Shown: piece by piece, positions 29,855 to 44,983 of the stretch
Numbering within the stretch: the first letter of the stretch is position 1
Layout: the number at the start of each line of letters is the position of its first letter
DNA from: Candidatus Electrothrix scaldis
Lineage (GTDB): Bacteria > Desulfobacterota > Desulfobulbia > Desulfobulbales > Desulfobulbaceae
Direction of reading: 5' to 3'
DNA: 64,000 nt
Assembly: GCA_033584155.1 (NCBI GenBank)
Contig: CP138355.1
Location: 2,303,826 to 2,367,825, forward strand
Position numbers and translations under genes: made by a program
The notes under the pieces: generated by a model
The model's input: only the letters and a program-made list of their open reading frames with translations
Database searches by the model: none
Told to the model about the DNA's origin: nothing

Positions 29855-30130
29855 TTAATAGAACCAGCTTGTAAGAGTTTCTTTTAGCTCCTATGTAATG
29901 ACTTCTCCTTTCTTATCTCCTTCTAGCTTGCCCTTCTTTTTAACTTTTTTCATTGTATTATAGTCTTTATACACCTTCTCAGCTCGTGTGGTAAGTAGAA
30001 AATAATAGCAATCTCGCCTTCGTTTATTCCTTCGGAAAAACAATGTCTTGAAAAAACTTGACAAGTAATGTCTGAGGTTAGATGATATATCAATAGATAA
30101 TAGTTACTAATGTTAAGGAGGGGCAAGGGT

Positions 30131-32359
30131 ATGAGGAGAAGAAACGTAGTGATCATAACGGGAATGAGTTTTTTTATTATTAGCATATTGCCTCTTATTC
30201 CCGGTTTAACTATTAAAATGGCAGAAGCTGCAAACCAAACTGTGCTTGCACAAATGCAAGCTCTTTCTCCTTCATCTGAAGGGATCCAAATGGTCCAGGC
30301 TGCTACTCCTGAAAGCAGCTTATGGAAAGGTCATACGCAGGCTGGTCTGCGTAGCCGGGCCATAGCACTGAATCCTCAGCTTCATGCAGAGAAACCATTC
30401 AGCAAAGGAACCAAACTTGTTACCCAGCTTTTTGATGATTTCAAGATCGAAGCAAATGTGCTGCGTTCTACCCGTAACAGCAAAGGGGTAACTGTAACGA
30501 CAGCAAAAATTGTTGGATCCCAATGGGGCAGGGTTTTTATTGCCTCATCCAACGGAAAGGTCAGGACGAAAATACTGGATCCTGAACAAAATAAGATTTT
30601 TTCCATTGAATATAATCAAGAGAATGGTCTTCATTATGCTGTGGAACTTGACCCAAATTTATTCCAAGACGGTGACGACCAGGTTGACGTCGTTCAACCT
30701 CCTGCCGAAACACTCATTAATAATGAACAGAGCATCTCGCAGATGCTGGGCGTTCTTCCAGTAGAAGACGACGAAAGTACAGATACAAGCACCGTGGTGG
30801 ATGTGATGGTTGTCTACTCCAATGACGCGCTCACCTATGCAGGCAGTGTTGATGAGATAAATAATATTATAGCCTTGGGTATAGCTATAGCCAATGATGC
30901 CCATGAGACCACGAATACAGGGATATTTCTCCACTTGGTGCATTCTGCCCAAGTGAATTATACCGATTCTGGAAATCGCTCTACCGATTTAGATCGCTTG
31001 TATGAAAGCAGTGATGGCTACCTGGATGATGTTCCTGCCCTGAGAGACGCCTATGGTGCTGATTTTGTTTCTCTCATGGTTGGTGATTCTGGTTCTGGAG
31101 GCACTGGCTATGTGCTGACCACTTCTTCCGGTTGGGCTTCTATCGCCTTGAATGTTATTAATGCGACGGTTTTTGATAGCTACACCCCAGCCCACGAGAT
31201 TGGCCATAATATGGGCTTGAGTCATGCCAAGGATCAAAATTATCAAGCAGGACCAACCTCTTGGTACCCAGATACCTATAGTTTTTCTGAAAGTTCCGCA
31301 GGTTGGCATTGGCACCCTGATGCAGGCCAGAGTGGCTACAGCAGTATTATGGCCTATAGCGACGGGAAATATTATGCTGATGGATTAAGTCACACACGAG
31401 TGGGGTTGTTTTCTGATCCTAATATTACTTACGGAGGCTTACCCTGTGGTCATGCAGATGATGGCTATAATGCTTTGGTATTACGATCACTAAAAAATGT
31501 CTACGCTGCTTATCGAGATCGCCCCATAAGTGCCAACTCCGTTGTCATAGATTCACCTAATGGCGGTGAAAGCTTTGCCGCAGGAAGTACCCAGTACATT
31601 CAATGGGACTTCGACGGAATATCAGGAAACGTAAAGATTGAACTTCTTGATAACGGGAGTGTGGATCAGGTCATTGCTGCGAGTACCTTGAATGATCGGG
31701 TTTATTCCTGGACACTGCCAAGCAATATAAGCGGTAAAAATTATACCATACGGATTAGCAGCCTTGATGGCTCCATTTCTGATACCAGTGATGCTGTTTT
31801 TTCCATCAAGTCTGTTGTATATGAGCATACTATGGATACTGACCCTGGCTATACCACAGAAAGCGAGTGGGAGTTTGGGGCACCCAGTGGGAATAATCCA
31901 ACCTATGGTGGGGCTGATGCTGCCTATACAGGAACAAATATCTATGATACTGACCTTGACAGCGTTATGTTTTCAACAGGTTATATGATGTCAACAGCCT
32001 TTGATTGCAGCGACTATGAGGCTGTAGAACTCTCTTTTATGGGATGGTTTTCAGTAACAAGCGGATATAATGCAACCGTTGAGGTTTCAAATGATAATGT
32101 CAACTGGACAACCCTTTATTCTATCTCAGACGTATGGACAAACGCTTGGCAAGAATATACTTTTGATATTTCCAGCTATGCTGATGAACAGGCAACGGTC
32201 TATGTCCGCTGGGGACATGTTGCCACCAGTGGTGGTTCCAATTATAGTGGAATGTCGGTGGATGATGTGAAAATCATCGGGGTGAACAAAGCAACAGCTG
32301 TATCTTCTTCCACAGGCAGTGTCGTTCCTGCCCTCATGCTGTTATTGATGTCAAAGTAG
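30131..32359 (+). CDS. Secreted metzincin metallopeptidase (reprolysin-like)
   Basis: The start is placed at the ATG at 30131, since an AAGGAGG site lies between it and an earlier ATG at 30110. A signal peptide (RRRNVVIITGMSFFIISIL) is followed by a propeptide of about 190 residues. The zinc site HEIGHNMGLSH (HExxHxxGxxH) lies near residue 355, with a Met-turn candidate in SSIMAYS. After the catalytic domain come a Kre9/KNH-like beta domain (SPNGGESFAAGSTQYIQW) and a jelly-roll-like domain ending VDDVKIIG. The C-terminus is hydrophobic with a terminal lysine (SVVPALMLLLMSK), possibly a sorting tail. It is predicted to degrade extracellular protein or process surface proteins. Confidence 0.85.
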   Translation: MRRRNVVIITGMSFFIISILPLIPGLTIKMAEAANQTVLAQMQALSPSSEGIQMVQAATPESSLWKGHTQAGLRSRAIALNPQLHAEKPFSKGTKLVTQLFDDFKIEANVLRSTRNSKGVTVTTAKIVGSQWGRVFIASSNGKVRTKILDPEQNKIFSIEYNQENGLHYAVELDPNLFQDGDDQVDVVQPPAETLINNEQSISQMLGVLPVEDDESTDTSTVVDVMVVYSNDALTYAGSVDEINNIIALGIAIANDAHETTNTGIFLHLVHSAQVNYTDSGNRSTDLDRLYESSDGYLDDVPALRDAYGADFVSLMVGDSGSGGTGYVLTTSSGWASIALNVINATVFDSYTPAHEIGHNMGLSHAKDQNYQAGPTSWYPDTYSFSESSAGWHWHPDAGQSGYSSIMAYSDGKYYADGLSHTRVGLFSDPNITYGGLPCGHADDGYNALVLRSLKNVYAAYRDRPISANSVVIDSPNGGESFAAGSTQYIQWDFDGISGNVKIELLDNGSVDQVIAASTLNDRVYSWTLPSNISGKNYTIRISSLDGSISDTSDAVFSIKSVVYEHTMDTDPGYTTESEWEFGAPSGNNPTYGGADAAYTGTNIYDTDLDSVMFSTGYMMSTAFDCSDYEAVELSFMGWFSVTSGYNATVEVSNDNVNWTTLYSISDVWTNAWQEYTFDISSYADEQATVYVRWGHVATSGGSNYSGMSVDDVKIIGVNKATAVSSSTGSVVPALMLLLMSK

Positions 32360-32380
32360 AACGTTGGGCCTATGGTGGTG

Positions 32381-32413
32381 CAAAGGGTGCCGCTGCTGAG
32401 CGGGTACCCTTTG
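32381..32413. terminator. Hairpin between convergent genes
   Basis: CAAAGGGT at 32381-32388 pairs with ACCCTTTG at 32406-32413. An A-tract lies to its right, so it looks more like a terminator for the minus-strand two-CW operon than for the peptidase, though it may serve both. Confidence 0.5.
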
Positions 32414-32435
32414 CTGTATAAAAAACGTACTGAAT

Positions 32436-32786
32436 TCAGTCTGTGTCATCTGAATGAGCTGTAACAGTAGCAATAACTTCCCGCAATTTTTGCACGATTT
32501 CCACGGTTCCCTTAAAATCATTCTGTTCTTCAGCGAGCACCTGTTCAAAGAACTCACAGTCATAACAGCTGGTACTTACGGTGCGGGCAAAACTCCCCTG
32601 AACTTTTTCGGCAGGACCGGACATGGTGCCGGTCAGTGCCCAGCAGGCACGCCCTCCATTGATCCCGTTATTTATTCCATTGATGGCTATGATGGTGGAT
32701 GCCGGACAAATTCCCTGTGAACTGACCTGATCGCCACCAGGCTGACGACCGCACTTTTTTACTTCCCAGCAATTTTTTTTTCGCAC
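32436..32786 (-). CDS. Two-CW domain protein
   Basis: The 116-residue protein shows the family pattern: an N-terminal CWEVKKCGR with a following CPAS, a second GRACWALTGT, then CYDCEFF. The paired Cys-Trp motifs and later cysteines suggest a metal or Fe-S binding fold, but this has not been shown. A helical tail of about 35 residues follows. Proteins of this kind often occur next to signalling genes in Desulfobacterota. Here it is the last of eight minus-strand genes with roadblock proteins and response regulators, 24 bases after the previous gene. Confidence 0.8.
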   Translation of the reverse strand: MRKKNCWEVKKCGRQPGGDQVSSQGICPASTIIAINGINNGINGGRACWALTGTMSGPAEKVQGSFARTVSTSCYDCEFFEQVLAEEQNDFKGTVEIVQKLREVIATVTAHSDDTD

Positions 32787-32810
32787 TCGGGTCTCCTTAC
32801 TTGCAGGGAA

Positions 32811-33329
32811 TTACCTTTCATTTTGAGAAAGCAATGTGTCTAAGGTACTGGTTATGTTCTCGTTATCCAGGGACGTGTTGAGCTCCTGAAGGCTATTGGG
32901 AGATAAACGAAAGTCTTCTGCCAAAAGTTCGATAACATTACCTATTTCAATTCTTGCTATGCCGAAACTGTTGGGGTTGTCAATCAGGAGGATAAGATGT
33001 ATATGGCATTTTCCGGGTTCTGCCCCAAGAGGATTATGCCCCTCATTGAGGCAACGGGCTAAGACTAAAGCCTTTTCTGTATGCATAAAGGTCAAATGAC
33101 TGCGACCCAACCCCATGTCTCGTGAGGCCTTTTCCGCTGTACGGAGTACATTATTGGCAAGGAAGGCGATCAGTTCAATATCTATATCCGAAGGATCGCA
33201 TTTTTGCAGGATACGACCATTGGGGGTTAAGACTGCGGCCCCGACAAAACCATCAATCTCTGCAAGCCGGCAGAGTTTTTCCTGAATTTTCATAACAGCA
33301 TTGATGAGGAGAGGGCCTCTTGAGGCCAC
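32811..33329 (-). CDS. Roadblock/LC7-like protein
   Basis: The 172-residue protein resembles a roadblock/LC7 fold: an initial helix (KIQEKLCRLAEIDG), strands FVGAAVLTPNGRIL, a long helix (LIAFLANNVLRTAEKASRDMG) and strands LTFMHTEKALVLARC, with ILLIDNPNSFGIARIEI following. Bacterial members such as MglB act as GTPase regulators or dimeric scaffolds. The frame can begin at a GTG at 33329 or, more naturally for the fold, at the ATG at 33293. Neither has a good ribosome site. It is adjacent to a second roadblock protein, but no MglA-like GTPase lies in the window. Confidence 0.62.
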   Translation of the reverse strand: MASRGPLLINAVMKIQEKLCRLAEIDGFVGAAVLTPNGRILQKCDPSDIDIELIAFLANNVLRTAEKASRDMGLGRSHLTFMHTEKALVLARCLNEGHNPLGAEPGKCHIHLILLIDNPNSFGIARIEIGNVIELLAEDFRLSPNSLQELNTSLDNENITSTLDTLLSQNER

Positions 33330-33372
33330 TCCTCAGAAAAAGATTATTAGAAGAAGAAGGAACCCGTGCAGA

Positions 33373-33774
33373 TTAGGCCAAGGCCTCTGCTGGATAATAT
33401 TGCGTCATAATTTCCAGAAGCTCTGCCTCAAAGGATTGCATAATCATCTTGGTCCTTCCCAACCACTCGTTACGGTCGGTCATAACAAAGAGGAAAAAAG
33501 AGAGGTTGTTCAGGTCTCTGATAATGAAATGGTATTGTGCTGTGCTAATGATAATGTCATCCGTTTTTTCCTTATGAGCAAGGAGCTTGATTGCCTTACG
33601 GTTTGATTTTACGATGGAAGAAAGATAGGCTGCTGCCGCACCTGCTTCAATTTCCGGTTGTACACTAAGCTCAGCCAAGGAAAGGCCATCATCGCAGTTC
33701 ACCACAGCAGCGGCCAAAAAACCAGGAAGATCCTTTCTCAGTCGTTCGAGTAAGGGAGGGAGTTGCTTTATCAT
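33373..33774 (-). CDS. Roadblock/LC7 domain protein
   Basis: The 133-residue protein fits a single roadblock/LC7 domain: PPLLERLRKDLPGFLAAAVV, then NCDDGLSLAEL, AAAYLSSIVKSNRKAIKLL, and the two strands DIIISTAQYHFIIRDL and LSFFLFVMTD. The C-terminal helix MIMQSFEAELLEIM follows. Such domains dimerise and may bind a small GTPase or another roadblock chain. It sits between a glutamine amidotransferase and another roadblock-like gene on the minus strand. It differs enough from its neighbour that the two could form a heterodimer. Confidence 0.72.
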   Translation of the reverse strand: MIKQLPPLLERLRKDLPGFLAAAVVNCDDGLSLAELSVQPEIEAGAAAAYLSSIVKSNRKAIKLLAHKEKTDDIIISTAQYHFIIRDLNNLSFFLFVMTDRNEWLGRTKMIMQSFEAELLEIMTQYYPAEALA

Positions 33775-33858
33775 CGGATTGATTCGGTCAGAGGATTAAA
33801 GTCGTATAAGACGGTATGTTGTTTATCTTTTAACTGCGTTCTGCTGGTGCGAGGCGAT

Positions 33859-34641
33859 CTATCCTTTTTCCTTGCTGAATAAGGGAAATTGGCGGACCGG
33901 GTGCTCACGGTATGTATTCAGCGTTCTCGCATCAAACATGAAGCCAGTTCTTCCTGGGAGGCCATCGGTGATAGCCGATCTTCCAAAGGTTTTTCGCAGG
34001 AAAAGATAACGTGATGAGAAAAAGAGGGCCCCCAGCTCGCTGCACCAATGCACTGAAACAGGATTTTTGTACTTTAACAGAAAAACAGAGTAGGGCAAAG
34101 CGGGATTGACATAAAGAATAACATAGGAACCAATGACCTCTTGGGAGATCTTGTAGAGCCTGTCGCTGTAGCTGGGTTGATTCATAGCACCTGAAATACT
34201 GTCAAGCAGCGCGATCACTGCCTCGCTGTCCACGGAGCCGATTCGGTCGCCATCTATGATCTGTTGCGCGAAGATATTGTCATCATTGGTGATTGTTCCG
34301 TTATGGACACCGATGATGTCGCCTCGAATAATGGGGTGGTTATTGACGTTTTTTTGCGGAGAGCCCTTCGTTGGCTCTCTGGTATGGCCGAGCATAACCG
34401 TTGTTTTTTCAGAAAGAGAACGCAATACCCGAAGATATCCTGGTGAGTGGACGAATTGGCTCGCTGTTACCGGAGCCTTATTTACCCGTATACTGGAGTC
34501 CTTATTCAGGAGGGCAATGCCGCTTGCCTCCCGGCCACGTTGTTCATTGGCGAGTAGGTTTTCGGTGAACAACTCTTGTATTCTGTGGAGTTGGGCAGAA
34601 GTTCTGCCAGGACTGATGAGTATGCCATTAATTCCGCACAT
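33859..34641 (-). CDS. Class II glutamine amidotransferase
   Basis: The 260-residue protein begins MCGINGIL, so Cys2 becomes the N-terminal nucleophile once Met is removed, as in all Ntn-type glutaminase domains. It also has MLGHTREPTKGSPQ and NNHPIIRGDIIGVHNGTI, the glutamine-site motifs. It is a stand-alone glutaminase with no synthase domain. It ends 36 bases after the amidoligase gene on the same strand, so it should supply ammonia or process a glutamine moiety for that enzyme. GATase-amidoligase gene pairs are a known but functionally unassigned combination. Confidence 0.87.
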   Translation of the reverse strand: MCGINGILISPGRTSAQLHRIQELFTENLLANEQRGREASGIALLNKDSSIRVNKAPVTASQFVHSPGYLRVLRSLSEKTTVMLGHTREPTKGSPQKNVNNHPIIRGDIIGVHNGTITNDDNIFAQQIIDGDRIGSVDSEAVIALLDSISGAMNQPSYSDRLYKISQEVIGSYVILYVNPALPYSVFLLKYKNPVSVHWCSELGALFFSSRYLFLRKTFGRSAITDGLPGRTGFMFDARTLNTYREHPVRQFPLFSKEKG

Positions 34642-34677
34642 TATATTTTTTATGGATATTTTTAACTGGCTATATAG

Positions 34678-35967
34678 TCAGCGGAGAAAAACCATACTCC
34701 CCAGTTCTTCCTGCCAAACCGGAGAACGATTTTTGTAATTCTGCAGACGTTTGTTGATTTCAGCTGTTGGCAAGTGGAGAAATTGTGCGGCTGATTCAAT
34801 CCAGCAGTTTTGATCGCTAATACCTATCAGTAAACCTAACTCAATGACCTTAATAAGCTCATAATCAGTATTGTCCAGAGTTGGTTGCGGGTTGATATGG
34901 CTGAGGAGCTCATCTTCTATTTTCTCCCAGCGTTGTCCTTTGGCTCTTCGAAGAGAAATAGGCTCAAGGGCTAATTGCTGTAGCACGACTTCACTGGGAT
35001 TGTCAAGAAGGAGGAAGATGGACTTGAGGAATAAAAGGAGTTGCTTGGCATTGCTCTGATATTTTTCCAGGATGATGTCGTCAATAGCACTGGTGTCACT
35101 GGTTGCCAGCTTCCCCTCGTTATTGCTGATCATATCCATCAAGTTCTTATTGTCGTCCATCAGCGAACCGATGTCAGCCTGAAGGAGGCCGAATTTAGAT
35201 ATCTCAACGGCCTTGAGCAGCATGGTCATGAAGAGGAAAACTTTTGCAGTGATAGATACCGGGCAGAGATCACCGTCTGGAAAACGAAATTCCAGGTGAA
35301 AGTTGGAAATATTGCCAGATTCTCCGAAACGAACATGCTCAATGTTAAAAAAGTTCTGATGCTCGGGTACTTCCAGGCTTTTTTTCAGGGTAGCCTGAAT
35401 CTCTTGCATGGAATGTTTTACCGGGGACAGCCGCATAAATTCCTGATGTGCGTTATGCTGTCTTCGTCGACAGAGTTCCTGGCGATTTTTCCCCCCGGAA
35501 GTGAGAAATTTGAGGCCAGGAGCGAAAATTCGGCCCATATTCCAGAGATTTGCCAGAACGATTTCAGGAACCTCTTCTGCCAGGCCTGTTCCGAGGATAT
35601 GAAAATGGAGGCCGCAGGTTGGGCGCATCCTGATTTTTTCCGCCAGCAGAGGGAGGATGATGTGCTGGTACTGATTGAGCAAGGCCTCCCAGTGAGGATG
35701 CCGTCCGATAACCAGAATCTCTACGCCGCAATGCTCCTTAATAACATCATATACTCCTAGCTCCCCGAGCTGATTCATATTGCCTGAGGGGTGCAGAGCC
35801 TGTTCTATGCGAGGTTGGAAATCTTCGCGGAGCACACCTTTGGGAAGGGCAAATTCCAGCTCTGTACCGATCTTGACGGTTCTATACAGGAGGTCCTGGA
35901 AATAACGGGCATCCGGTAAGGTCAGGCTGTCGGGGCGGCTGAGAAAAGCAGGAAGGAAATTTTGCAT
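34678..35967 (-). CDS. Amidoligase of the glutamine synthetase/GCS-like superfamily
   Basis: The 429-residue protein has the metal-binding start IGTELEFALP, the histidine strand RPTCGLHFHILG and LEFRFPDGDL. These match the active-site layout of gamma-glutamylcysteine-synthetase-like amidoligases. They form an amide between a carboxylate and an amine using ATP. The C-terminal 170 residues are helical and unlike characterised members. The pairing with the downstream glutaminase suggests it amidates or conjugates a small molecule, peptide or protein. Its location in a signalling cluster raises protein modification as an option. The substrate cannot be read from sequence. Confidence 0.75.
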   Translation of the reverse strand: MQNFLPAFLSRPDSLTLPDARYFQDLLYRTVKIGTELEFALPKGVLREDFQPRIEQALHPSGNMNQLGELGVYDVIKEHCGVEILVIGRHPHWEALLNQYQHIILPLLAEKIRMRPTCGLHFHILGTGLAEEVPEIVLANLWNMGRIFAPGLKFLTSGGKNRQELCRRRQHNAHQEFMRLSPVKHSMQEIQATLKKSLEVPEHQNFFNIEHVRFGESGNISNFHLEFRFPDGDLCPVSITAKVFLFMTMLLKAVEISKFGLLQADIGSLMDDNKNLMDMISNNEGKLATSDTSAIDDIILEKYQSNAKQLLLFLKSIFLLLDNPSEVVLQQLALEPISLRRAKGQRWEKIEDELLSHINPQPTLDNTDYELIKVIELGLLIGISDQNCWIESAAQFLHLPTAEINKRLQNYKNRSPVWQEELGSMVFLR

Positions 35968-36092
35968 AAAAGCTGCGCGCAGGGCAGTACATACAAAGGT
36001 ATAATCAAAGAATGCCGAAGAAGTGATGGGTAGAAAGAATATCTGGGCTGAGCCGTCACTTCCTCGGTGTTCTGGTTCGTTCTAGTGTACTA

Positions 36093-36569
36093 TCAATGCT
36101 CTATCAGCGTAAAGGTAATGGTCGAACCGTGTGTCTCCGGAATAGGTGCAATGGCCTTTTGCGCTGGTTTACCCATCCGGATCAGAGCAGCCTGGCAGAC
36201 GTTCATGATGGGACAAGTAAAAGGGATTTCTACGCCGGTCTTCAAAATGGACTGGGTGAGATTCCAGCCCTGACAGTGGTTAACAGTCAGAGCAATTTTA
36301 TTACCATCCTGTTCTGTGGTAAAAGATTCGATAAAACCCATTTCGTCGGCAAAGATACGGCCAATTTCGGTGATAACATTTTTGGGATCTTCGCCTTCAA
36401 CCTCAAGGCCCATTTCTTGCTCCATGATCTCCAGTGTTGATTTACCAACCTCGCTCATGGTGGCAAAAGCTGTTTCGCCGAATAAATCGTATAAGGCCTT
36501 GGCCATGCCTGATATCATCAAGGTCATCAGGCGCATCATATTTTTTTTCTTTTGTTCTTCAGTAGCCAT
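36093..36569 (-). CDS. V4R-like small-molecule-binding protein
   Basis: The 158-residue protein starts with a GGGAG site. Its pattern recalls V4R domains: a helix with YDLFGETAFATMSEVGKSTLE, an acidic helix with ITEIGRIFADEMGF, the strand NKIALTVNHCQ, and a Cys-containing segment PFTCPIMNVCQAALI. The end reads STITFTLIEH. V4R domains bind hydrophobic ligands or metals and often regulate partner kinases. It lies in the middle of the two-component/roadblock cluster. The three cysteines could bind a metal. The family call is by visual resemblance only. Confidence 0.45.
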   Translation of the reverse strand: MATEEQKKKNMMRLMTLMISGMAKALYDLFGETAFATMSEVGKSTLEIMEQEMGLEVEGEDPKNVITEIGRIFADEMGFIESFTTEQDGNKIALTVNHCQGWNLTQSILKTGVEIPFTCPIMNVCQAALIRMGKPAQKAIAPIPETHGSTITFTLIEH

Positions 36570-36752
36570 AAGGATCTCCCCACTTCTTCATTCCTGGATG
36601 TAAAGACACCGGTTAGGTCGGCGGCCTTGCTTATACTTTGATCGTGTCGGTGTGCCGGGAACTGCGCGTGGCGCTGTTCTGAGATCGGTCTATACTATAT
36701 ACGTCTATACTATATACCTTACACACCGTGCTAACGATATTGTTCTGCTGTA

Positions 36753-37883
36753 TTATAATGATTTGCGAAGTTGGTCAAGATACCGTTGAGCAACCAGCCG
36801 GACATTCCCCAGGGTGCCATCTCTGCTCACAGCGATGCCAACATAGTATTGAGGAGTGATAAATCTGGTAAGTATCCAGGCGTTTTGTGATTGCACCAGA
36901 TTTTCTTCAAAATCACCCATTCCCTGCAGAGAGTCAACAGATTTTTCAACGAGTTTCATGACCATAGCAAATTTGGCTGAAAATGCCTCAACATCTGTTC
37001 CGGTCGGATTATGCAGGGCAATTGTGATACCGTCCATACCTGTTACTTGAATTGCAAGGACGCCGTCCATTTCGCCAGCCATTTCTTTAAGTAGCTCTTT
37101 GATTCCGGCCATTTTTTTTTCTCCTGTAGGTTGTTGTTGCTTCTTTTTCTGTTGTTGTATACGAATAAATTCCTGTTTGACTAAATCCAGTGGCTTTTCT
37201 TCTTTGACTGTATCCTTACGGTGTGCGGCCTCAAGAAGAAGCGACATCAGCTCGGCCTGGATTTTGGGCTCCGGCAGAGGGGGAGAGAGTTTTTTCATGC
37301 TGAGACAAACATTCTCCCAGGTTAGCATCTCAAAAGCCGCTTCTTCAGCAATAAGATGATCATACTGCGCATCAATGAGCTTGCCGTCTGCAAAAAAAAG
37401 AAAACCTACCTTGCCGTTGGGATGGGCCACCTTTAATGCCGCTGTTTTTTGTTCCATAGCGACAATTTGCAGGAAATTAGACAGGGTAATACCTGCAAGC
37501 CCGTCATTCCGATGCTCATGAAGATCTAGGGCTCTATTGATGGCCTGTTCCAAGGCATCAATATCCAGAGGTTTTTCAAGAACCTCCATAGTTCCGGCTT
37601 TTTTCAGCTGTTGTTCCATGACGGGTGTACCAAAGGCGGTCATGACGATATTGGGAACCTTGGGAAAGGTTTCTGTCATGGCTGCCAGCAGTTCGACGCC
37701 ATCCATAACAGGCATCCTCAGGTCGGTAACTACAAGATCCATTGGATTTCTTGACAGGATATCCAGGGCCTCTCTGCCATTATGGGCCGTGGTTATCTGG
37801 AAACGGTCGTTTTTTTCAAAGCCGTAACTGATGCTTAAGAGCAGTTCTGGCTCATCGTCAACAATGAGTACTTGTTGTTTCAT
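36753..37883 (-). CDS. Response regulator: REC-PATAN(DUF4388)-roadblock/LC7
   Basis: The 376-residue protein has a receiver domain (LIVDDEPELLL, phospho-acceptor Asp in DLVVTDLRMPVMDG, EKPLDI). A PATAN/DUF4388 segment follows (NFLQIVAMEQKTAALKV ... GFLFFADGKLIDAQY), then a Gln/Lys-rich linker. A C-terminal roadblock/LC7 domain begins near residue 260 (IKELLKEMAGEMDGVLAIQV). This fusion ties phosphorelay input directly to a roadblock module. It is 53 bases downstream of a paralogue lacking the last domain. No DNA-binding domain is present, so output is probably through protein contacts. Confidence 0.85.
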   Translation of the reverse strand: MKQQVLIVDDEPELLLSISYGFEKNDRFQITTAHNGREALDILSRNPMDLVVTDLRMPVMDGVELLAAMTETFPKVPNIVMTAFGTPVMEQQLKKAGTMEVLEKPLDIDALEQAINRALDLHEHRNDGLAGITLSNFLQIVAMEQKTAALKVAHPNGKVGFLFFADGKLIDAQYDHLIAEEAAFEMLTWENVCLSMKKLSPPLPEPKIQAELMSLLLEAAHRKDTVKEEKPLDLVKQEFIRIQQQKKKQQQPTGEKKMAGIKELLKEMAGEMDGVLAIQVTGMDGITIALHNPTGTDVEAFSAKFAMVMKLVEKSVDSLQGMGDFEENLVQSQNAWILTRFITPQYYVGIAVSRDGTLGNVRLVAQRYLDQLRKSL

Positions 37884-37936
37884 GGAGTAGGGTGTGACTG
37901 TATCGGTTCCAGATCTTGTCCCAGACCTGAGCTTGC

Positions 37937-38665
37937 CTATTTCTTTTTCTGGAGTCGGGTAAATTCCTGCCGGACTTGGTCCAAGGGATGAACCTCACCA
38001 TATTGTTCTTTATGATAAGGCATGCCAAAGAGGAGAGGCGTAAGTTGGGATTGTTCATCGTTTTTTCTGGTGGCAGGGCAGAATTCCTTCATACTGAGTC
38101 TGATTCTGTTCCATTCCAGCATTTCCAGTACAGCCTCGTCTCCGGTTTGCTCGCCTTGCTCCGCATCAATGAGGTAACCTTTACGGAAAAAGAAACTCCC
38201 GTGTTCATCCTTCTTATTAAATACCTTGAGATGAACGGTTTTTTTCTCCATTGCGACCAGCTGAAGAAAGATATCCAATTTGGGACCTCCTTCCTGCGTT
38301 TGATAGAAATCTAAAGCTGTGGTAATGGCCTGTTCAAGTGTTTCGATATCTAAAGGTTTTTCCAGAAGATTGAGGGTGCCCGCCTTTTTTAACTGCTGTT
38401 CCATTTTTGATGTCCCAAAGGCAGTCATGACAATGCTGGGAATTTCAGGAAAGGATTGGCTCATGGCTGCCAGGAGCTCTATCCCGTCCATCTGCGGCAT
38501 CCTCAGGTCTGTTACCACTAAGTCAACAATATTATTTTCGAGCAGATCAAGAGCCTCTCTGCCGTTTCCAGCAGTCATCAGCTGGAAATGCGGATTATTT
38601 TCAAATCCTGCCTGGACAGTGAGGAGAAGGTCTGGTTCATCATCGACTATTAAAACGTTTTTCAT
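37937..38665 (-). CDS. Response regulator: REC-PATAN(DUF4388)
   Basis: The 242-residue protein has a receiver domain (VLIVDDEPDLLLTV, VVTDLRMPQMDG, EKPLDIETLEQAI) and a PATAN segment (IFLQLVAMEKKTVHLKV, GSFFFRKGYLIDAEQG). It ends at LDQVRQEFTRLQKKK, the same point where its downstream paralogue continues into a roadblock domain. Large stretches of the two are near-identical, indicating recent tandem duplication. It is the first gene of the minus-strand cluster and is divergent from the histidine kinase. Confidence 0.88.
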   Translation of the reverse strand: MKNVLIVDDEPDLLLTVQAGFENNPHFQLMTAGNGREALDLLENNIVDLVVTDLRMPQMDGIELLAAMSQSFPEIPSIVMTAFGTSKMEQQLKKAGTLNLLEKPLDIETLEQAITTALDFYQTQEGGPKLDIFLQLVAMEKKTVHLKVFNKKDEHGSFFFRKGYLIDAEQGEQTGDEAVLEMLEWNRIRLSMKEFCPATRKNDEQSQLTPLLFGMPYHKEQYGEVHPLDQVRQEFTRLQKKK

Positions 38666-39020
38666 GAATTTTTTCTGGATGTTTCATTGGCCTGCATGCA
38701 CGAACATAAAAATATACATGCAGAAAGGTATTTTTATCAAGAGTACCGCAGAACCCGTAGGGAGGGGGCTTTCTGTCTTGACTTGGGAGACGAATAAATC
38801 TTGTTTCTCTAAACATTCCATGTTAGCAATAACAGAGTCTGAAATAAACAAAAAAATGTATTGTCAGTCCGGTGAGATGCCTTCTTAAATACTGTGCTCT
38901 GCCTGGGCTTGTACTACGGATTGGTTGTTAGGTGTGTTTTAAATAGATGTTTTCTCTGTAAATAAATATTACCGGAGCCTGAATTCCTCTCCTTTCTGCT
39001 CTCTCCTTTTTTTGCATACT
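38666..39020. other. Divergent promoter region of the phosphorelay cluster
   Basis: These 355 bases separate the response-regulator operon from the divergent kinase gene and should contain both promoters. No convincing sigma factor box, operator palindrome or ribosome site was recognised. Confidence 0.45.
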
Positions 39021-41078
39021 ATGAAAATTGAAAAGGCCTGTATACTTCTGATTGACGATGATCCACTGATCCTTGCAATTTTACGATATATTTTAGAGCA
39101 TGAGCAGTATAAGGTGTTGGATGCACAAAACGGTCAAAGAGGCTTGCAGCTTGCCGAAGAGGAGCAACCAAACCTTATTCTGCTTGATATTAATTTGCCT
39201 GATATCACTGGGTTTAACGTCTGTAAGCAGCTGAAGATGAATGGAAAGACCAGTGGCATCCCGATTATTTTTCTTACAGCTACCGGGGTTGAGGGAAATG
39301 AGTATCGAGGCTTTGAAGAAGGAGCTGTGGATTTCCTGCGCAAGCCGGTCAATAAGGCCCAGCTTTGTGCCCGGGTCAATAATGCCTTAGACATGCAGGC
39401 TGCCCGGCTGAAACTGGAGCAACAGGCCTTTGACCTGGAGCGGGCAAATGTCTTGCTCAAAGATACACTGGCGGTTCAGCAGCGTACCAGTCGTAATTTA
39501 TTGCAGCGCGACCATATCCTCAGTGCTGTGAATTATGTGGCAAAGTCTTTTTTGAAAACAGATAATTGGGAAGAGATTATCAAGAAGGTGCTCAAGTATT
39601 TGGGCGAAAATGTTGACAGCGAGCACGTCTACCTGAAGACCTTCGAACCACAGGTAGCCCAACGGCGCCATTATACCTGGTATAAAACCAATAACACCAT
39701 CACATGCTCCAGTATCGACCTGCTGGCTATGTGGAAGACACCAGGGGATTTGTTGTCTGAGGAGCCCATAACCGGCCCAGACTCCCATGTTCCTTCCTTT
39801 CTGTGGGGAGAATTTGAAAATAATAATATTCGTACCTATCTTATTCTGCCTATCTATGTCTATAAACAGCTCTGGGGATGTATCGGCTTTGATTGCAGCC
39901 TTGCCGGGCGTTCCTGGGATGCCCCCCTTGTTGAGGCCATGAAAACCTCTTCTGATATAATTGGCACTGCTATCCAGAGAACTTTTGAGTCCCGGGAAAG
40001 AAGCCGATTGGCTGCTGCGATTAATGAATTTGCCGATTGTGTGCTGATGGCGGATAGGGCAGGGACTATATTTTATGCCAATCCCGCCAGTACACAGGTT
40101 ACCGGATATCGACCTGAAGAGTTGACCGGGTTAAAACTTGCCCAGATCCAATGTGATGAGCACAGACGTTTTAACTGTCATGATGTACTGAATATGGTGG
40201 TGGAAGGGGCGGAATGGCACGGTGAGATAAAAAATCGACATAAGGATGGGACATTTTACGATGAATCTATTGCTGTTATCCCTGTGAAGGGAAAGGCTGA
40301 TAGGGTGAATAGCTTTTGCGTGATCAAGCGTGATCAGACAGAAAAAAAACGGCTGGAATCCATTGCTGAGGCTGCGAACCTCATGGATAATGTCGGCTTT
40401 GTGTTTTCCGGGATCAGGCATGAGCTGGGTAATCCACTGAACTCCTTGAAAATGGCGATCAGCGTTTTGCAGCGACAATTAGATGGTCTTTCTCTGGAGA
40501 GAATCAGAGAGTTTCTGGATCGTTCCATGGGAGAGATTAAAAGAATGGAGTATCTGCTCTATTCGTTGAAGAATTTTAACGTCCTGGAAGAACAGGAACT
40601 CGTTTTGGTTGATCTCGCTGTTTTTCTGGAAAATTTCAAACGGGTTCATGAGAAGGATTTGCTGGCAAATGATGTAAAAATAGAACTCTATATAGAGGCA
40701 AAGGCTTGTAGTCTGGTTGATGAGAGGGCATTGCATCAGGTCTTTCTCAATTTGTTGACGAACTCCGTTAATGCCCTGAAGAATACCTTGTCTCCTTGTA
40801 TCTCTGTCTATCTTCTCCGAAAAGACGCGCAATTTGCCCAGATTATCTTTCAGGATAACGGTTGCGGGATTTCTGAACAAACCAGGAAACAGCTTTTTAA
40901 GCCTTTTTTTACCACCCGGGCCAAGGGGACTGGACTGGGGCTTACCATTGTTAAAAAAATGCTGACATCGATGAACTGCACAGTGAGCGTAGAAGGGAGA
41001 GTGGGAAAAGGTACCAAAATTCTCATTACCCTGCCCACAGAGCATTGCCTGCCTCTACATGATGAAGAAAAAAAATAA
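39021..41078 (+). CDS. Hybrid sensor: REC-GAF-PAS-histidine kinase
   Basis: The protein of about 685 residues has an N-terminal receiver (LLIDDDPLILAIL, Asp in LILLDINLPDITG). A GAF-like domain (residues about 170-330) and a PAS domain follow (ADRAGTIFYANPASTQVTG). The dimerisation helix has His467 in GIRHELGNPLNSLK. The ATPase domain has the N-box QVFLNLLTNSVNAL, G1 FQDNGCGIS and G2 KGTGLGLTIV. There are no transmembrane segments, so it senses a cytoplasmic signal. The start is placed at the ATG at 39021; a TTG at 39012 is possible. It is the only kinase near the two PATAN response regulators and probably phosphorylates them. Confidence 0.9.
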   Translation: MKIEKACILLIDDDPLILAILRYILEHEQYKVLDAQNGQRGLQLAEEEQPNLILLDINLPDITGFNVCKQLKMNGKTSGIPIIFLTATGVEGNEYRGFEEGAVDFLRKPVNKAQLCARVNNALDMQAARLKLEQQAFDLERANVLLKDTLAVQQRTSRNLLQRDHILSAVNYVAKSFLKTDNWEEIIKKVLKYLGENVDSEHVYLKTFEPQVAQRRHYTWYKTNNTITCSSIDLLAMWKTPGDLLSEEPITGPDSHVPSFLWGEFENNNIRTYLILPIYVYKQLWGCIGFDCSLAGRSWDAPLVEAMKTSSDIIGTAIQRTFESRERSRLAAAINEFADCVLMADRAGTIFYANPASTQVTGYRPEELTGLKLAQIQCDEHRRFNCHDVLNMVVEGAEWHGEIKNRHKDGTFYDESIAVIPVKGKADRVNSFCVIKRDQTEKKRLESIAEAANLMDNVGFVFSGIRHELGNPLNSLKMAISVLQRQLDGLSLERIREFLDRSMGEIKRMEYLLYSLKNFNVLEEQELVLVDLAVFLENFKRVHEKDLLANDVKIELYIEAKACSLVDERALHQVFLNLLTNSVNALKNTLSPCISVYLLRKDAQFAQIIFQDNGCGISEQTRKQLFKPFFTTRAKGTGLGLTIVKKMLTSMNCTVSVEGRVGKGTKILITLPTEHCLPLHDEEKK

Positions 41079-41155
41079 GCCTGTCTGTCTTTTTTGTTGG
41101 GAAAAGGAGAGGGTTTCTTTTATTGTTTTGGGCACTGTGAAACAGTACCGTCCTT

Positions 41156-41914
41156 TTGGGACTGAATCCACAGGAAGATTCATGCGAAGAAATAAAATTT
41201 AACCTGATCCAAGCCATGTCCTTTGAAGTCAGCTTACCCGGTTATGAGCGCCTTAATACCATTGTGGTTTCACTTGGAATGGAAATTTCCGATTCCATTC
41301 TGCTGGCATTGCGTAATGAAGTTGCTGCCTGTCGTGCGGAGCAAAAGGAGCAGCTCGGAAGAGTTGGCCCGGTTCTTCAGGGGATTGAAGCTGTGGCCCG
41401 CCATATTGATGAAATTCGTTTGCTCACCGATGCCCGCGCCTTACATCTTCTCCAGGAACTTGTGCAGACCTATAAGGTGCTTACTGAGGAAAAGCCGGAA
41501 GAGTCCGTTGCTTGGTCCATTTCCTCTGAGGCCTTGAATAAGGTCCTTTCCTGGCAGCATGGCTGTGTTCGGGAAAGCCTGAATAAGGCCCAAAGCCCGG
41601 ATTATGACGGAATCCCGACAACGCCTCAATCGTCTTCCTTTGATATGCGTGGCATGCTGGATGCAGTGCGACAGGAAATCGCGGAAACCGGCATACTGGC
41701 TATTCGGGAATCTGCTACAATACTGGAACTTGTTCACGGGCAAAAAGAGGTCCAAGAAGCTCAAGAGGGCGAAGCCTCTGCTGACGCTGAACAGAGCGCA
41801 GTAGAGCAAAATATAGATTTCAGCGCAGTGGTCCGGGAAAATATTTCTTCTTTGCAACAGGCGCTCCATCAGGAAATGGGGCGTTTGCGTCATGATTTTA
41901 TTGGAGATAGATGA
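41156..41914 (+). CDS. Uncharacterised helical protein downstream of the kinase
   Basis: The 252-residue frame begins with a TTG at 41156; an ATG at 41216 would give a 232-residue protein (MSFEVSLPGYERL). It is rich in helix-forming residues, with an acidic stretch (EVQEAQEGEASADAEQ) and an ending helix (ISSLQQALHQEMGRLRHD). The repeated ARHIDEIRLLTDARAL-like helices suggest a helical bundle. No enzyme or domain family was recognised. Its position 78 bases after the kinase stop suggests a role in the same signalling system, for example as an input or scaffold. Confidence 0.55.
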   Translation: MGLNPQEDSCEEIKFNLIQAMSFEVSLPGYERLNTIVVSLGMEISDSILLALRNEVAACRAEQKEQLGRVGPVLQGIEAVARHIDEIRLLTDARALHLLQELVQTYKVLTEEKPEESVAWSISSEALNKVLSWQHGCVRESLNKAQSPDYDGIPTTPQSSSFDMRGMLDAVRQEIAETGILAIRESATILELVHGQKEVQEAQEGEASADAEQSAVEQNIDFSAVVRENISSLQQALHQEMGRLRHDFIGDR

Positions 41915-41920
41915 GATGGG

Positions 41921-43732
41921 TCATTCCTCCCGGCTGAACAGGGGAATGGAATAATTACTCCCGAATCTCCGAAAGATGTTGTTGATGCCGTCATAATCCG
42001 AGGCGTACATATTCTCCCGACTGCGAGCATATTCCAGCACCTCCTGCGTAAAGCCACCGGTGGAAATGAGCCAGAGCCGGATTTCCGGTACAGACTGCTG
42101 TTCCTCTTCCATCTGCTGTTGAAAGACCTGGGCTGCTGCCTCCAGCTTTTCCACCTGCCCTATACTCATAGGCTTCCGGGTGTACTTACATTCACAGAGC
42201 CAGACCCGGTAATCTCTCCCCGCTTCATTGCCCAGCAAATCAATCTGATACTCCGGGCTTGCAGATGCCTTGACCCTCTGCGACCTGACGTATTGAAATA
42301 AAGGTACTTCCAGATCACCCCGCCTGCCGAACCAGGAACCGGGCAGTTGCTCACGGTTGAACTTGAGCATGGAGACCTCCACCGCCATTTCCAGGAATTT
42401 CCCTTTCAGCGTGTTGATCAGCCCTTGCTGACTCAGGTCAATCTCATCCACGCCTTCCAGATCCTGCTCATACAGGAACTTGATGAAACGCATCAGGCAG
42501 ATATCGTTAAACGTATAATATTTTGCAGCACTCCTGTAGACCAGATCTGCTGTGTAGAGCTTTTCGATCTTTTTTGCCACAGCTTTTTTGGGAACCCTGA
42601 GTTTTTCGGCAATGGCCCCGGTGTCCACAGGCTGATTATTATAGCGGGTGAAGTAATAAATGATTTTCTTGCCCAATTCTGTATCATCGTCCTGATTGAT
42701 CAGGTTCCGGTTATTGTCAAAATGAGTCTGCCAGAAACCAAAAATTTTTCCTCTCTCAATCTCATAGCGGATAACCCGATCAACAGCCTGTTTATTCTGA
42801 AACTCTCTGGTCTCGCACCTGGAGGTGGCCAGACAGTAGAGATAATAGGGATGGCCTCCCACCTGCGCACTGGCATACAGGGCCAGTTCCGTGCTGATTG
42901 TTCTTCCCCGACCGTAGTATTTTAACGCGGTGTGCAGGAGTGCGGCCCCGTCTGGCAAGGATAACGGTTTCATGTACATAAAATCAAAACGTCCGCCCAG
43001 AGGCCCGCCCATGACTGTTCGGAACACCATGGTCACTGCGGAACCGGACACCAGCATGGGGGCCTTGCGGCTCTGGGCCTGCCTGTCAAAGGTATTGGCG
43101 AGACGGATGGCTCCGTATCCATCCGAGCGGTCTTTGGCATCCATCAGTTCTTTCGGCATATCATAGACACAGGTCTGCATGTCCTGGAATTCGTCAATGA
43201 TCACAGCCACTCTGGTGCCGGAATGGGAACCGAGCCGTTCCGGAACCCGGATAAATGCCTCCCAATGGATCAGGGCCTCTTCCTCCCCGTGACGATTATA
43301 CCGCCGCATAAACCGTTGAATATACTCCTGAGCCAGGATGCCAGCCTCATGGTCTGTTTTGTAGTCCAAAAGGTCTTCCAACGCAATATCCTGGCCAAAC
43401 AAAAGCGCATCCTGTTCACAATAAGCGAGATACTGACGAAAAAAGGTGGTCGCGTATTCCAGAAGAAATTTTCTGAGCGTCCGTTTTTCCCGCGTCATTT
43501 TAAAATAGAAGGGCGCAACCTGATATTCGGGTTTGAAAAAAACTGTGTTCACGAGGCGGTCCAGAAACACGGTCTTGCCGATCCTGCGGGGTGCGATCAG
43601 GGCTGTGCTGGTTGCGCCCATGCGCTGAATCGCGGCAACCCATTGCTCCAGTTCGCGGAGCAACTCCACCCGGTCGGTAAATTCATCCTCGTGAACCATC
43701 TCCTCCACCGGCCATATTTTTATATCCGACAT
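41921..43732 (-). CDS. AAA-type ATPase with C-terminal PD-(D/E)XK-like domain
   Basis: The 603-residue protein has a Walker A motif in ALIAPRRIGKT (residues 45-54), Walker B VAVIIDEFQD, a winged-helix-like region (KLRVPKKAVAKKIEKL) and a C-terminal nuclease-like core. In the latter, QIDLLGNE supplies an Asp and WLCECKYTRKP the ExK. This is the DUF234-like archaeal-type ATPase architecture, often found in mobile or defence contexts. It converges with the preceding gene and stands alone. Its target is unknown. Confidence 0.8.
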   Translation of the reverse strand: MSDIKIWPVEEMVHEDEFTDRVELLRELEQWVAAIQRMGATSTALIAPRRIGKTVFLDRLVNTVFFKPEYQVAPFYFKMTREKRTLRKFLLEYATTFFRQYLAYCEQDALLFGQDIALEDLLDYKTDHEAGILAQEYIQRFMRRYNRHGEEEALIHWEAFIRVPERLGSHSGTRVAVIIDEFQDMQTCVYDMPKELMDAKDRSDGYGAIRLANTFDRQAQSRKAPMLVSGSAVTMVFRTVMGGPLGGRFDFMYMKPLSLPDGAALLHTALKYYGRGRTISTELALYASAQVGGHPYYLYCLATSRCETREFQNKQAVDRVIRYEIERGKIFGFWQTHFDNNRNLINQDDDTELGKKIIYYFTRYNNQPVDTGAIAEKLRVPKKAVAKKIEKLYTADLVYRSAAKYYTFNDICLMRFIKFLYEQDLEGVDEIDLSQQGLINTLKGKFLEMAVEVSMLKFNREQLPGSWFGRRGDLEVPLFQYVRSQRVKASASPEYQIDLLGNEAGRDYRVWLCECKYTRKPMSIGQVEKLEAAAQVFQQQMEEEQQSVPEIRLWLISTGGFTQEVLEYARSRENMYASDYDGINNIFRRFGSNYSIPLFSREE

Positions 43733-43801
43733 TGCGATATTCCTCTATGATCTCAGGATTTTTTATTGACAGAACAACGGATCATGATATAGTTTTTTGC
43801 T

Positions 43802-43834
43802 CCAGCGTCTCCAGCGTCTCCAGCGTCTCCAGCG
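43802..43834. repeat. 9-bp tandem repeat (CCAGCGTCT)
   Basis: Three complete copies and a partial fourth copy of CCAGCGTCT lie 70 bases upstream of the ATPase gene start (minus strand). The array is too short and too regular for CRISPR; slippage is the simplest origin. Confidence 0.85.
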
Positions 43835-43906
43835 TATCTCGGAAACCGCATCATTGTATCCGAGTCGCCTCACGCAGGCAACACATGAAAGCCCTTTGAG
43901 TATGAG

Positions 43907-43926
43907 AAAAAACTCCGGCGGGAGTT
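43907..43926 (-). terminator. Small hairpin with T-tract on the minus strand
   Basis: AACTCC and GGAGTT pair across a four-base loop, and the minus strand continues into a T-run. It resembles a weak terminator, but no minus-strand gene ends just before it. Confidence 0.35.
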
Positions 43927-44014
43927 AGCTGCTGAATTGAGCGGTGGTATAAAATACAGAATTTTTCGGAATATAAAAAGCACTGCAAATTATAAATGGA
44001 CAATAAAGAGAGAG

Positions 44015-44983
44015 ATGGACAGTCTGCTGGCTATATTACGCCGTACCGTCGAAAAACGTCTCGCCTGGGACGACACTGAAGTTTCCGCCTCACTCGGCAA
44101 ACCGGCGGTGTTTATCCTCACCCCGCCGCGTTCCGGTTCCACTCTGCTCAGGGTCATGCTGGCCGGGCATCCGGAATTGTTTGCGCCGCCCGAACTGGAA
44201 CTGCTGTCGTTCACGAACCTGAAACATCGCCGTGAGGGGCTGTCGTTGCGCCACGGCTATATGCTCAGGGGGCTGGTGCGCGCGGTGATGGCATTGCGCG
44301 AATGCGGTGAAGCTGAAGCCGAAGGGCTTGTCAACGAGTGGGAAGCCCGGGCCGTTCTGATGCCGGAGGTGTACGCGCAACTGCAGGAATGGTGCGGGTC
44401 GCGCATGTTGGTGGACAAGTCGGTGCATTACGCCCTGTCACCGAAAATTCTGCAACGGGCGGCCGACTGTTTCGGGCAGGCCCGGTTTATTCATCTGACC
44501 CGCCATCCCCAAGCCACCCTGCAATCCATTGTATCCATGAAATTGGATAAAGAACTGTTCGGCGGCGTGAGCGCGGGTGCGGAGGAGATTGCCGAAGGAA
44601 TCTGGACACTGAGTCATGAAAACATTCTCGGTTTTCTGGATCCAATCCCTGCCGGGCACCGGCTTCGGGTGCGTTACGAGGATCTGGTCTCCGCACCACA
44701 GGATGAGTTGGGGAGAATATGCGCGTTTCTGGGCATAGCATTTCATCCCGCCATGCTGTTGCCTTATGCGGAACGGCGGCAGCGCATGACCGACGAGATC
44801 GGTCCTCAGGATCCCAATTTTCATCGACATCAGGGCATCGACGCCCGGCTGGCCGAGGCATGGCGGGACAGCGGGCATGTTGCTCTTTCGTCGGAAAGCA
44901 TGTGCATTGCCGACAAGCTGCACCGCCAGCAGTCCTGTTGCGGGACTCGAATCTGTCCACACCCCAGTTGGCCTGTTGGTTGA
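44015..44983 (+). CDS. Sulfotransferase family protein
   Basis: From the ATG at 44015, preceded by a GAGAG stretch, the product is 322 residues. The PAPS 5'-phosphosulfate loop is visible in LTPPRSGSTLLRVML. A second motif (IHLTRHPQATLQSI) gives the 3'-phosphate site arginine/serine region, and RVRYEDLVSAPQDEL matches the family's downstream conserved segment. It would transfer sulfate from PAPS to a hydroxyl or amine. The last 20-30 residues overlap the start of the NRPS frame, which runs in another phase, so the natural stop may have been changed by a frameshift. Confidence 0.82.
   Translation: MDSLLAILRRTVEKRLAWDDTEVSASLGKPAVFILTPPRSGSTLLRVMLAGHPELFAPPELELLSFTNLKHRREGLSLRHGYMLRGLVRAVMALRECGEAEAEGLVNEWEARAVLMPEVYAQLQEWCGSRMLVDKSVHYALSPKILQRAADCFGQARFIHLTRHPQATLQSIVSMKLDKELFGGVSAGAEEIAEGIWTLSHENILGFLDPIPAGHRLRVRYEDLVSAPQDELGRICAFLGIAFHPAMLLPYAERRQRMTDEIGPQDPNFHRHQGIDARLAEAWRDSGHVALSSESMCIADKLHRQQSCCGTRICPHPSWPVG

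Follow-up and report, generated by a model that had tools for sequence, protein, structure and literature searches.

Background

Modules built from roadblock proteins, PATAN regulators and MglA-type GTPases set cell polarity and motility in bacteria other than the one considered here, and to our knowledge no covalent chemistry is attached to them. In the MglA/MglB-RomR polarity module of Myxococcus xanthus, roadblock proteins and REC regulators are arranged around a Group-1 MglA-type GTPase. Here, we present an analysis of a ten-gene cluster at positions 32436-41914 of a stretch of 64,000 nucleotides (hereafter the window) from Candidatus Electrothrix scaldis (contig CP138355.1, positions 2,303,826 to 2,367,825), in which a phosphorelay, roadblock proteins and a V4R/Bet3-fold protein stand together with AL, a putative carboxylate-amine ligase, and the glutaminase GAT. 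We tentatively read the cluster as a module of PATAN, roadblock and V4R proteins that controls an MglA-family GTPase and is combined with a detachable ligase cassette, and regard the chances of this reading as close to even.

The cluster resembles the Myxococcus module in its roadblock proteins and REC regulators, but the GTPase of the window genome is encoded outside the locus, and a V4R-fold subunit, a ligase and a glutaminase are present, none of which is part of the Mgl system as far as we know. In the actinobacterial conservons (CvnA-D), a kinase, a roadblock protein and an MglA-type GTPase are encoded together (PMC4316618, PMC13343842). Unlike conservons, the cluster includes REC-PATAN regulators, ligase, glutaminase and V4R protein, and no GTPase is found in 13 of the 15 loci compared. 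A search of the ten cluster proteins returned no DUF742, which we take to be conservon CvnC, and the window locus has no GTPase. The Ragulator and TRAPP sets of Asgard archaea and eukaryotes, as described in PMC10933270, also bring a Ras-like GTPase together with roadblock-type proteins and a fold of the Bet3/TRAPPC3 type, whereas the V4R fold found here is equally close to BcsD, H-NOX and PoxR/MopR. With regard to the enzyme, AL is like the GCS2/YbdK ligases (PF04107) in fold and, judged by eye, in the motif order ExE, GxHxH, ExRxxD, but it is unmatched by the GCS2 model and a profile comparison gave 2.7%. The phage phiEco32-like COOH.NH2 ligases (PF14395) come into view through the nearest outside relative of AL, which shares a contig with two of them, although the Pfam and PHROGs models both fail to recognise AL and this relative.

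Modules of roadblock, PATAN and MglA-type proteins, conservons and V4R/TRAPPC3 folds have all been described before. Two features look new, namely a GS-fold ligase stably added together with a glutaminase, and a V4R/Bet3 fold joined to PATAN and roadblock proteins in bacteria. No description of either was found in the literature, of which our coverage was partial, with subscription journals mostly outside it, so that absence from print is not shown. We know of no genetic tools for cable bacteria; the genomes offer a natural comparison set (AL with GAT, AL without GAT, and the module without AL), which makes the roles of the parts testable. If true, the favoured reading would equip a roadblock/PATAN/MglA-type switch with an enzymatic output or feedback, and would provide a concrete regulatory system to study in cable bacteria, whose movement is by gliding or twitching (PMC12093952).

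Conservation of the cluster across genomes

AL was surveyed in overlapping genome sets and was present in 11 of 257 Desulfobulbales genomes (5 of 69 genera), in 4 of 395 phylum-wide genomes (the window's own and one phage-like case included), in 6 of the 8 genomes of the genus, in 2 of 10 of the order of genome G260 and in both genomes of the HSG9 family. Setting aside the phage-like case (G026), we counted 15 AL loci (the window, G396, G400, G397, G395 = E. aarhusensis, G398 = E. gigas, G423, G489, G490, G605, G616, GMC6, HSG9, G260 and G194), with a single AL copy per AL-bearing genome, inside the cluster.

The gene order PATAN-roadblock, V4R, AL, GAT is repeated in five families, which is more than expected by chance, with the two-CW gene inserted between V4R and AL in two loci and V4R placed on a separate contig in one. 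A fused roadblock domain adjoins AL in all 15 loci. V4R adjoins AL in 14 loci and lies on another contig in G395, so that it is present in all 15 genomes, and no AL without both the fused roadblock domain and V4R was seen among these loci. The preliminary description of the window had tied the amide-forming pair to the regulators; this tie is borne out by the neighbourhoods, and relatives in which the pair always occurs apart were not encountered.

Other parts of the cluster are more variable. The fused regulator contains PATAN in 14 and REC in 11 of the 15 loci, the G260 locus being cut by its contig. RblB is found in 11 of 15, and the two-CW gene in 8 (six Electrothrix, G260 and G194) as well as in three loci of the genus g255. 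RblA occurs in the six AL-bearing Electrothrix genomes and three AL-less g255 genomes, and the helical protein, among the loci read, is confined to those six Electrothrix genomes. The divergent placement of the histidine kinase (HK) is kept in other Electrothrix genomes, in G423 and in g255, and in G395 the kinase lies on contig C123.

The genus g255 also shows that the association runs in one direction. V4R occurs in 14 of the 257 Desulfobulbales genomes, namely the 11 with AL and three of g255 without it; another g255 genome, G469 (95% complete), is not among the 14. The three g255 loci have HK, PATAN-roadblock, V4R, RblA and two-CW genes, with a separate REC-PATAN gene in two of them, and tblastn gave no match below E 0.3 for AL, GAT or RblB, and for RblB none even below E 1. 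As these three genes are gone from between V4R and RblA, they appear to be a detachable cassette, and the module can stand alone. The proposed link between roadblock proteins and amide formation is therefore recurrent but one-way, as the module exists without AL and GAT in three g255 genomes and GAT is eroded in two of six AL-bearing Electrothrix genomes.

Within Electrothrix, the ratio of non-synonymous to synonymous substitution rates (dN/dS) was below 0.32 for nine cluster genes wherever computable (REC-PATAN left out; many dS values saturated). Among these nine, V4R is under the strongest constraint (0.025-0.038), and the helical protein reached 0.26-0.31. Conservation of V4R also exceeds that of the fused roadblock domain in 8 of 9 AL-bearing genomes outside Electrothrix, the exception being GMC6 (50.3 vs 60.8%), and in neither of the two g255 genomes compared (of three), a weak comparison as g255 is one genus.

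In E. aarhusensis the cluster is split over two contigs, with helical-HK-PATAN-PATAN/Rbl-V4R on C123 (L083) and a second, more diverged PATAN/Rbl gene followed by AL-GAT-RblB-RblA-twoCW on C92 (L007). A loss of V4R in this species was considered and rejected, since the gene lies on the other contig (L083). We do not claim that the cluster tracks multicellular life; Electrothrix genome G401 is without it, and HSG9 could not be traced in papers.

Association with an MglA-type GTPase

An MglA-like GTPase is absent from the window locus, as the preliminary description had noted, and the genome (5.09 Mb, one contig) has a single match, at a distance of about 0.85 Mb. All 20 genomes tested have the GTPase, whether or not they carry AL, and its identity within the genus is 98-100%. 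In two distant relatives, G616 (family f2) and G194 (family f14), each of which has two copies, a GTPase is encoded within about 1.1 kb of the cluster and on the same strand. The order in G616 is V4R-AL-GAT-RblB-Rbl-GTPase, where the RblB and Rbl frames overlap by 4 bp when the first possible starts are taken, and the GTPase is 66% identical to that of the window genome. In G194 the order is GTPase-Rbl-small gene-PATAN/Rbl-V4R-twoCW-AL-GAT, with the roadblock gene over the Pfam cut-off. The chance of finding a GTPase this close is approximately 0.0015-0.002 per locus, and that of two cases in 15 loci about 3 in 10,000, both being rough values based on copy number, genome size and the 1.1 kb reach. 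All three GTPases (G616, G194 and the window genome) contain TVPGQ and an Arg before the G2 Thr, given as Group-1 MglA hallmarks in PMC4316618, which also reports that Group 1 and 5 MglA genes occasionally occur near PATAN genes.

A second connection runs through the helical protein, previously described only as of unknown kind. In the window genome, the GTPase has its own roadblock gene, and a long acidic protein, very rich in Asp and Glu, is encoded directly behind. The helical protein now turns out to share a module with the N-terminal repeats of this acidic protein (HHalign 94.1%, second repeat 33.6%; plain HMMER 12.8 bits). In an all-against-all HHalign comparison of 36 pairs, only this pair and that of RblB with the fused roadblock domain exceeded 25%.

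The repeat-rich acidic protein lies at L025:9441-17001 (G000:C1), directly behind the roadblock gene and the GTPase. Its frames measure 2,544-2,644 amino acids (aa) in three Electrothrix genomes, 897-1,925 aa in three others, and 416-1,232 aa in other relatives, some of them possibly cut by contig ends. Next after the GTPase and the acidic protein in G616 (L038:3043-4629) come a HYDIN/ASH-like protein, which matches a zinc ribbon weakly, and two small unassigned proteins (142 and 116 aa). A 128-aa gene beside the G194 GTPase was rejected as a roadblock candidate, having no roadblock match in Pfam and HHalign values of 42.2% to RblB and below 1% to the rest.

The putative ligase and the glutaminase

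Sequence searches with AL against Pfam, NCBIfam, PHROGs and the PDB chains all came back empty. The GCS2 model (PF04107) does not match it either, and the one GCS2 match of the genome belongs to a separate gene. An AlphaFold2 model of AL (mean predicted local distance difference test score, pLDDT, 83.2) retrieved GS/GCS-fold proteins in the first seven Foldseek rows (E 6.2e-5 to 7.6e-4). With VIA-align, the best 50 rows (Z 17.6 to 10.8) all belong to the GS/GCS superfamily, including a plant GCL (17.6), the predicted Salmonella glutathione synthase 1tt4 (17.2), YbdK (1r8g, 16.3) and the Pup enzymes Dop (14.8) and PafA (14.7).

An eleven-row alignment of AL shows three conserved motifs, G-x-E-x-E, C-G-L-H-x-H and E-x-R-x-x-D. 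In GTELEF, E38 is invariant and E36 nearly so, while H121 and H123 of GLHFH and E226, R228 and D231 of HLEFRFPD are invariant. Judged by eye, the separate GCS2-family protein of the genome has GVELEF, GMHVH and VEVRICD in the same order. The HHalign value of 2.7% between AL and GCS2 proteins is not significant; GLHFH was placed on GMHVH, and one 869-aa row widened the alignment. The modelled fold makes AL a new family of the GS/GCS fold, absent from the copies of Pfam, NCBIfam and PHROGs searched, and model and motifs together are consistent with an active ATP-dependent carboxylate-amine ligase. The earlier amidoligase call is in this way upheld for the fold by the model, but not for any Pfam, NCBIfam or PHROGs family, and a GCS-like assignment by the GCS2 profile fails.

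GAT has the features of a class-II glutamine amidotransferase, namely a Cys after the Met and a match to the GATase profile. Residue C2 is kept in 13 of 13 aligned rows (the E. gigas remnant stands outside the alignment), and R88, N114, G115 and D138 in every aligned row except the deleted G400 copy; we take these five to be class-II catalytic residues. The gene is full length in 12 of the 15 AL loci, is cut by a contig end in G194, and is degenerate in G400 and E. gigas, that is in two of the six AL-bearing Electrothrix genomes. G400 has an in-frame deletion that leaves 97 aa, and in E. gigas a frameshifted remnant alone is left. The degenerate copies (L022:12353-12646 and L003:10284-10447) occupy the conserved slot between AL and RblB. 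No second intact GAT was found in the 16 genomes searched, these two included, and their residual weak matches correspond to open frames of 618 and 766 aa, which are taken for GlmS-like enzymes.

The loss of GAT left the constraint on AL in place, with dN/dS of 0.059-0.074 for pairs with the GAT-less E. gigas and 0.065-0.119 for pairs with G400, compared to 0.075-0.128 between GAT-intact genomes (many dS values saturated). Since GAT is eroded while AL stays constrained, glutaminase-fed amide formation is not obligatory. Unless GAT was lost very recently, AL has a use of its own in two or more lineages.

The nearest AL relative outside the cluster (28-32% identity) is on a phage-like contig of G026. 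This locus, L019 (G026:C64:47000-56850), also encodes a clamp loader, a single-stranded DNA-binding protein and a helicase, together with two COOH.NH2 ligases of the phiEco32-like kind; a single mobile element may thus bring together three ligase-fold genes. A comparison of the AL alignment against viral contigs gave 26 pattern matches and zero relatives.

Roadblock and V4R assignments

The preliminary family calls hold for the REC, PATAN, kinase, GATase and two-CW domains, with REC and PATAN of both regulators and the GATase over their cut-offs, and are weaker for the roadblock proteins. The evidence for the latter comes from HHalign, where the fused roadblock domain aligned with RblB (97.6%), RblA (91.7%) and a three-row roadblock reference set (86.7%), while five unrelated control proteins gave at most 0.6%. 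Two of the three reference rows are over the Pfam roadblock cut-off, and the third is 62% identical to one of those.

For the V4R-like protein, no Pfam family was found at E 0.1, V4R and TRAPP included. Its structure model (pLDDT 84.5) places mouse Bet3 (1wc8) first in Foldseek (E 2.8e-5, template modelling (TM) score 0.60). The list also contains designed helical proteins and H-NOX and, lower down, PoxR, Thorarchaeal TRAPPC3 and a BcsD-type protein. The VIA-align Z-scores lie at about 9-11 (TRAPP up to 11.0), where TRAPP, BcsD, H-NOX and PoxR/MopR are too near one another to rank. The earlier V4R-like call is retained as a Bet3/V4R-type fold by model, but not as a Pfam match.

Interpretation and alternatives

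The comparison directly establishes the gene set, its conservation and linkage, the predicted folds and the selection on the genes, together with the fact that the module is sometimes beside a GTPase and sometimes without the ligase. The roadblock scaffold probably serves an MglA-type GTPase; in two relatives the GTPase lies inside the cluster. The roadblock and V4R partners that accompany AL in 15/15 cases each, the GTPase in G616 and G194, the module common to the helical and acidic proteins, the fold and motifs of AL and the purifying selection suggest a GTPase control module with a ligase cassette.

In such a system, the divergent hybrid kinase would phosphorylate the REC domains of both PATAN regulators, where REC is present, and the fused roadblock domain would pair with the free roadblock proteins to form a platform binding and switching the GTPase. 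The V4R/Bet3-fold protein could be the ligand- or partner-sensing subunit and the bridge to the ligase. AL would spend ATP on amide formation, its substrate being either a small molecule or a protein. An intact GAT would supply the ammonia, and genomes that have lost GAT would draw on free ammonium or a different amine instead. The resulting product or modified protein may in turn feed back on the GTPase module.

Several results weigh against this picture. Only 2 of 15 loci have the GTPase next to the cluster, and cluster-less genomes have it as a core gene too, so that the module cannot be its only regulator. The fused regulator is without REC in 3 of 15 loci (G605, G616 and G194), among them both GTPase loci, and its phosphorylation is consequently not a fixed part. 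HSG9 and GMC6 have a minimal form of the cluster, with HK, RblA and the helical protein all missing from the neighbourhood; no RblB turned up in HSG9, and the GMC6 contig ends before it could show. Both AL and V4R are missing from one Electrothrix genome, G401, which is 97% complete. As to the proteins themselves, RblA (21.3 bits) and the fused domain (17.8 bits) are under the cut-off of 23 for PF03259 (Robl_LC7) and RblB has no match; direct HHalign comparisons gave 0.3% for RblA-RblB, 0.2% for RblB-reference and 2.3% for RblA-reference, and because these fail, the roadblock link of RblA and RblB is transitive. For the V4R fold, the Z-scores to ligand sensors, haem sensors and BcsD are tied, and the query-normalised TM-scores of AL in the first seven Foldseek rows are low (0.29-0.35). 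The preliminary description had suggested that phosphorylation controls a roadblock scaffold linked to ATP-driven amide conjugation; the gene linkage behind this idea stands, with the corrections that phosphorylation of the fused regulator is not a constant feature and that GAT is dispensable.

The strongest alternative, which we nevertheless consider doubtful, is a circuit without a GTPase, in which AL and GAT would make a soluble amide or gamma-glutamyl-type compound that V4R binds, the kinase and PATAN regulators adjust the pathway, and the roadblock proteins are a mere scaffold. The nearest folds to AL include GCL and YbdK, which make small amides, and 13 of 15 loci have no GTPase next to the cluster. 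The V4R/TRAPPC3 type of fold points the same way, since TRAPPC3 and PoxR hold hydrophobic ligands in cavities, such proteins forming dimers (PMC10933270), and PoxR/MopR are among the V4R matches. Against such a circuit, the GTPase lies within the cluster in two distant lineages and the helical protein has a module of the GTPase-linked protein; moreover, no transporter or extra biosynthetic gene stood out by eye as a repeated neighbour of AL among the loci read, and three g255 genomes retain the signalling module in the absence of AL.

Two further alternatives place the output on proteins. A G-protein-like circuit, in which the phosphorelay and a Bet3/roadblock platform would control, or obey, the new GS-fold amide ligase, with protein conjugation or amidation as the output, seems unlikely to us. 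We rate lower still the proposal that AL acts in a PafA-like manner or amidates a carboxylate of a partner (regulator, GTPase or acidic scaffold), with the module setting the timing. PafA and Dop do rank high among the structural matches (Z 14.7 and 14.8) and the GTPase-linked protein is very rich in Asp and Glu, but GCL and YbdK score higher (Z 16.3-17.6), and the fold is silent on substrate. As GCL and YbdK are structurally nearer to the AL model than PafA and Dop, we lean by a small margin towards a small molecule or free carboxylate as the substrate, rather than protein conjugation.

That AL and GAT are a horizontally moving cassette in a loose neighbourhood, with no joint function with the regulators, would agree with the absence of the cassette in three g255 genomes, the decay of GAT in two Electrothrix genomes and the distant AL relative in a phage-like contig, but is very improbable given the constant order and neighbours across five families, the single AL per genome inside the cluster with no second intact GAT in 16 genomes, and the degree of conservation of V4R, which is above that of the fused roadblock domain in 8 of 9 AL-bearing non-Electrothrix genomes and in 0 of 2 g255 genomes compared.

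Gene list and surroundings

The ten genes have the strands and coordinates given in the preliminary description (Table 1), with eight open reading frames (ORFs) on the minus strand at 32436-38665 and two divergent ones on the plus strand at 39012-41914.

Table 1 Genes of the cluster, in window coordinates, with the basis of each assignment.
Feature	Coordinates	Strand	Basis
Two-CW domain protein (116 aa)	32436..32786	minus	NCBIfam NF045718, 90 bits, E 8.7e-26
RblA, free roadblock/LC7 protein (172 aa)	32811..33329	minus	Pfam Robl_LC7 21.3 bits, under cut-off 23
RblB, free roadblock-like protein (133 aa)	33373..33774	minus	No Pfam match; HHalign to fused roadblock domain
GAT, class-II glutaminase/amidotransferase (260 aa)	33859..34641	minus	GATase_6 31.7 bits, cut-off 27
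AL, putative carboxylate-amine ligase, GS/GCS fold (429 aa)	34678..35967	minus	Structure model
V4R/Bet3-fold protein (158 aa)	36093..36569	minus	Structure model; no Pfam match
REC-PATAN-roadblock (fused) regulator (376 aa)	36753..37883	minus	Response_reg 88.6, DUF4388 49.9, Robl_LC7 17.8 bits (last under cut-off)
REC-PATAN regulator (242 aa), paralogue of the fused regulator	37937..38665	minus	Response_reg 89.7, DUF4388 26.7 bits (cut-off 25)
HK, REC-GAF-PAS-HisKA-HATPase histidine kinase, divergent	39012..41078	plus	Pfam
Helical protein; residues 29-112 are the module common to the MglA-linked acidic protein	41156..41914	plus	HHalign

Counts of promoter-like sites (22, compared to 13.2 +/- 4.0 in shuffles) and terminator-like sites (9, compared to 10.2 +/- 3.3) were uninformative on operon limits, and an Rfam scan of 30000-44000 found no RNA element at gathering scores. 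An anti-phage role was considered and rejected, as PADLOC on eight proteins returned two weak matches alone (a REC protein, 20.1 bits, and a neighbouring ATPase, 15.3 bits).

The cluster is flanked at 30110-32359 and 41921-43732 by a reprolysin-like metallopeptidase and a weakly ATPase_2-like protein, both here and in G396. In G400, G397 and E. gigas, the flank on the helical side consists, by eye, of NUDIX-like and methyltransferase-like genes, so the flanks vary by species. Shortly past the cluster, at 43937-47370, a sulfotransferase-like ORF is followed by an ORF resembling a non-ribosomal peptide synthetase, with condensation and adenylation-like parts recognised by eye from the translation.

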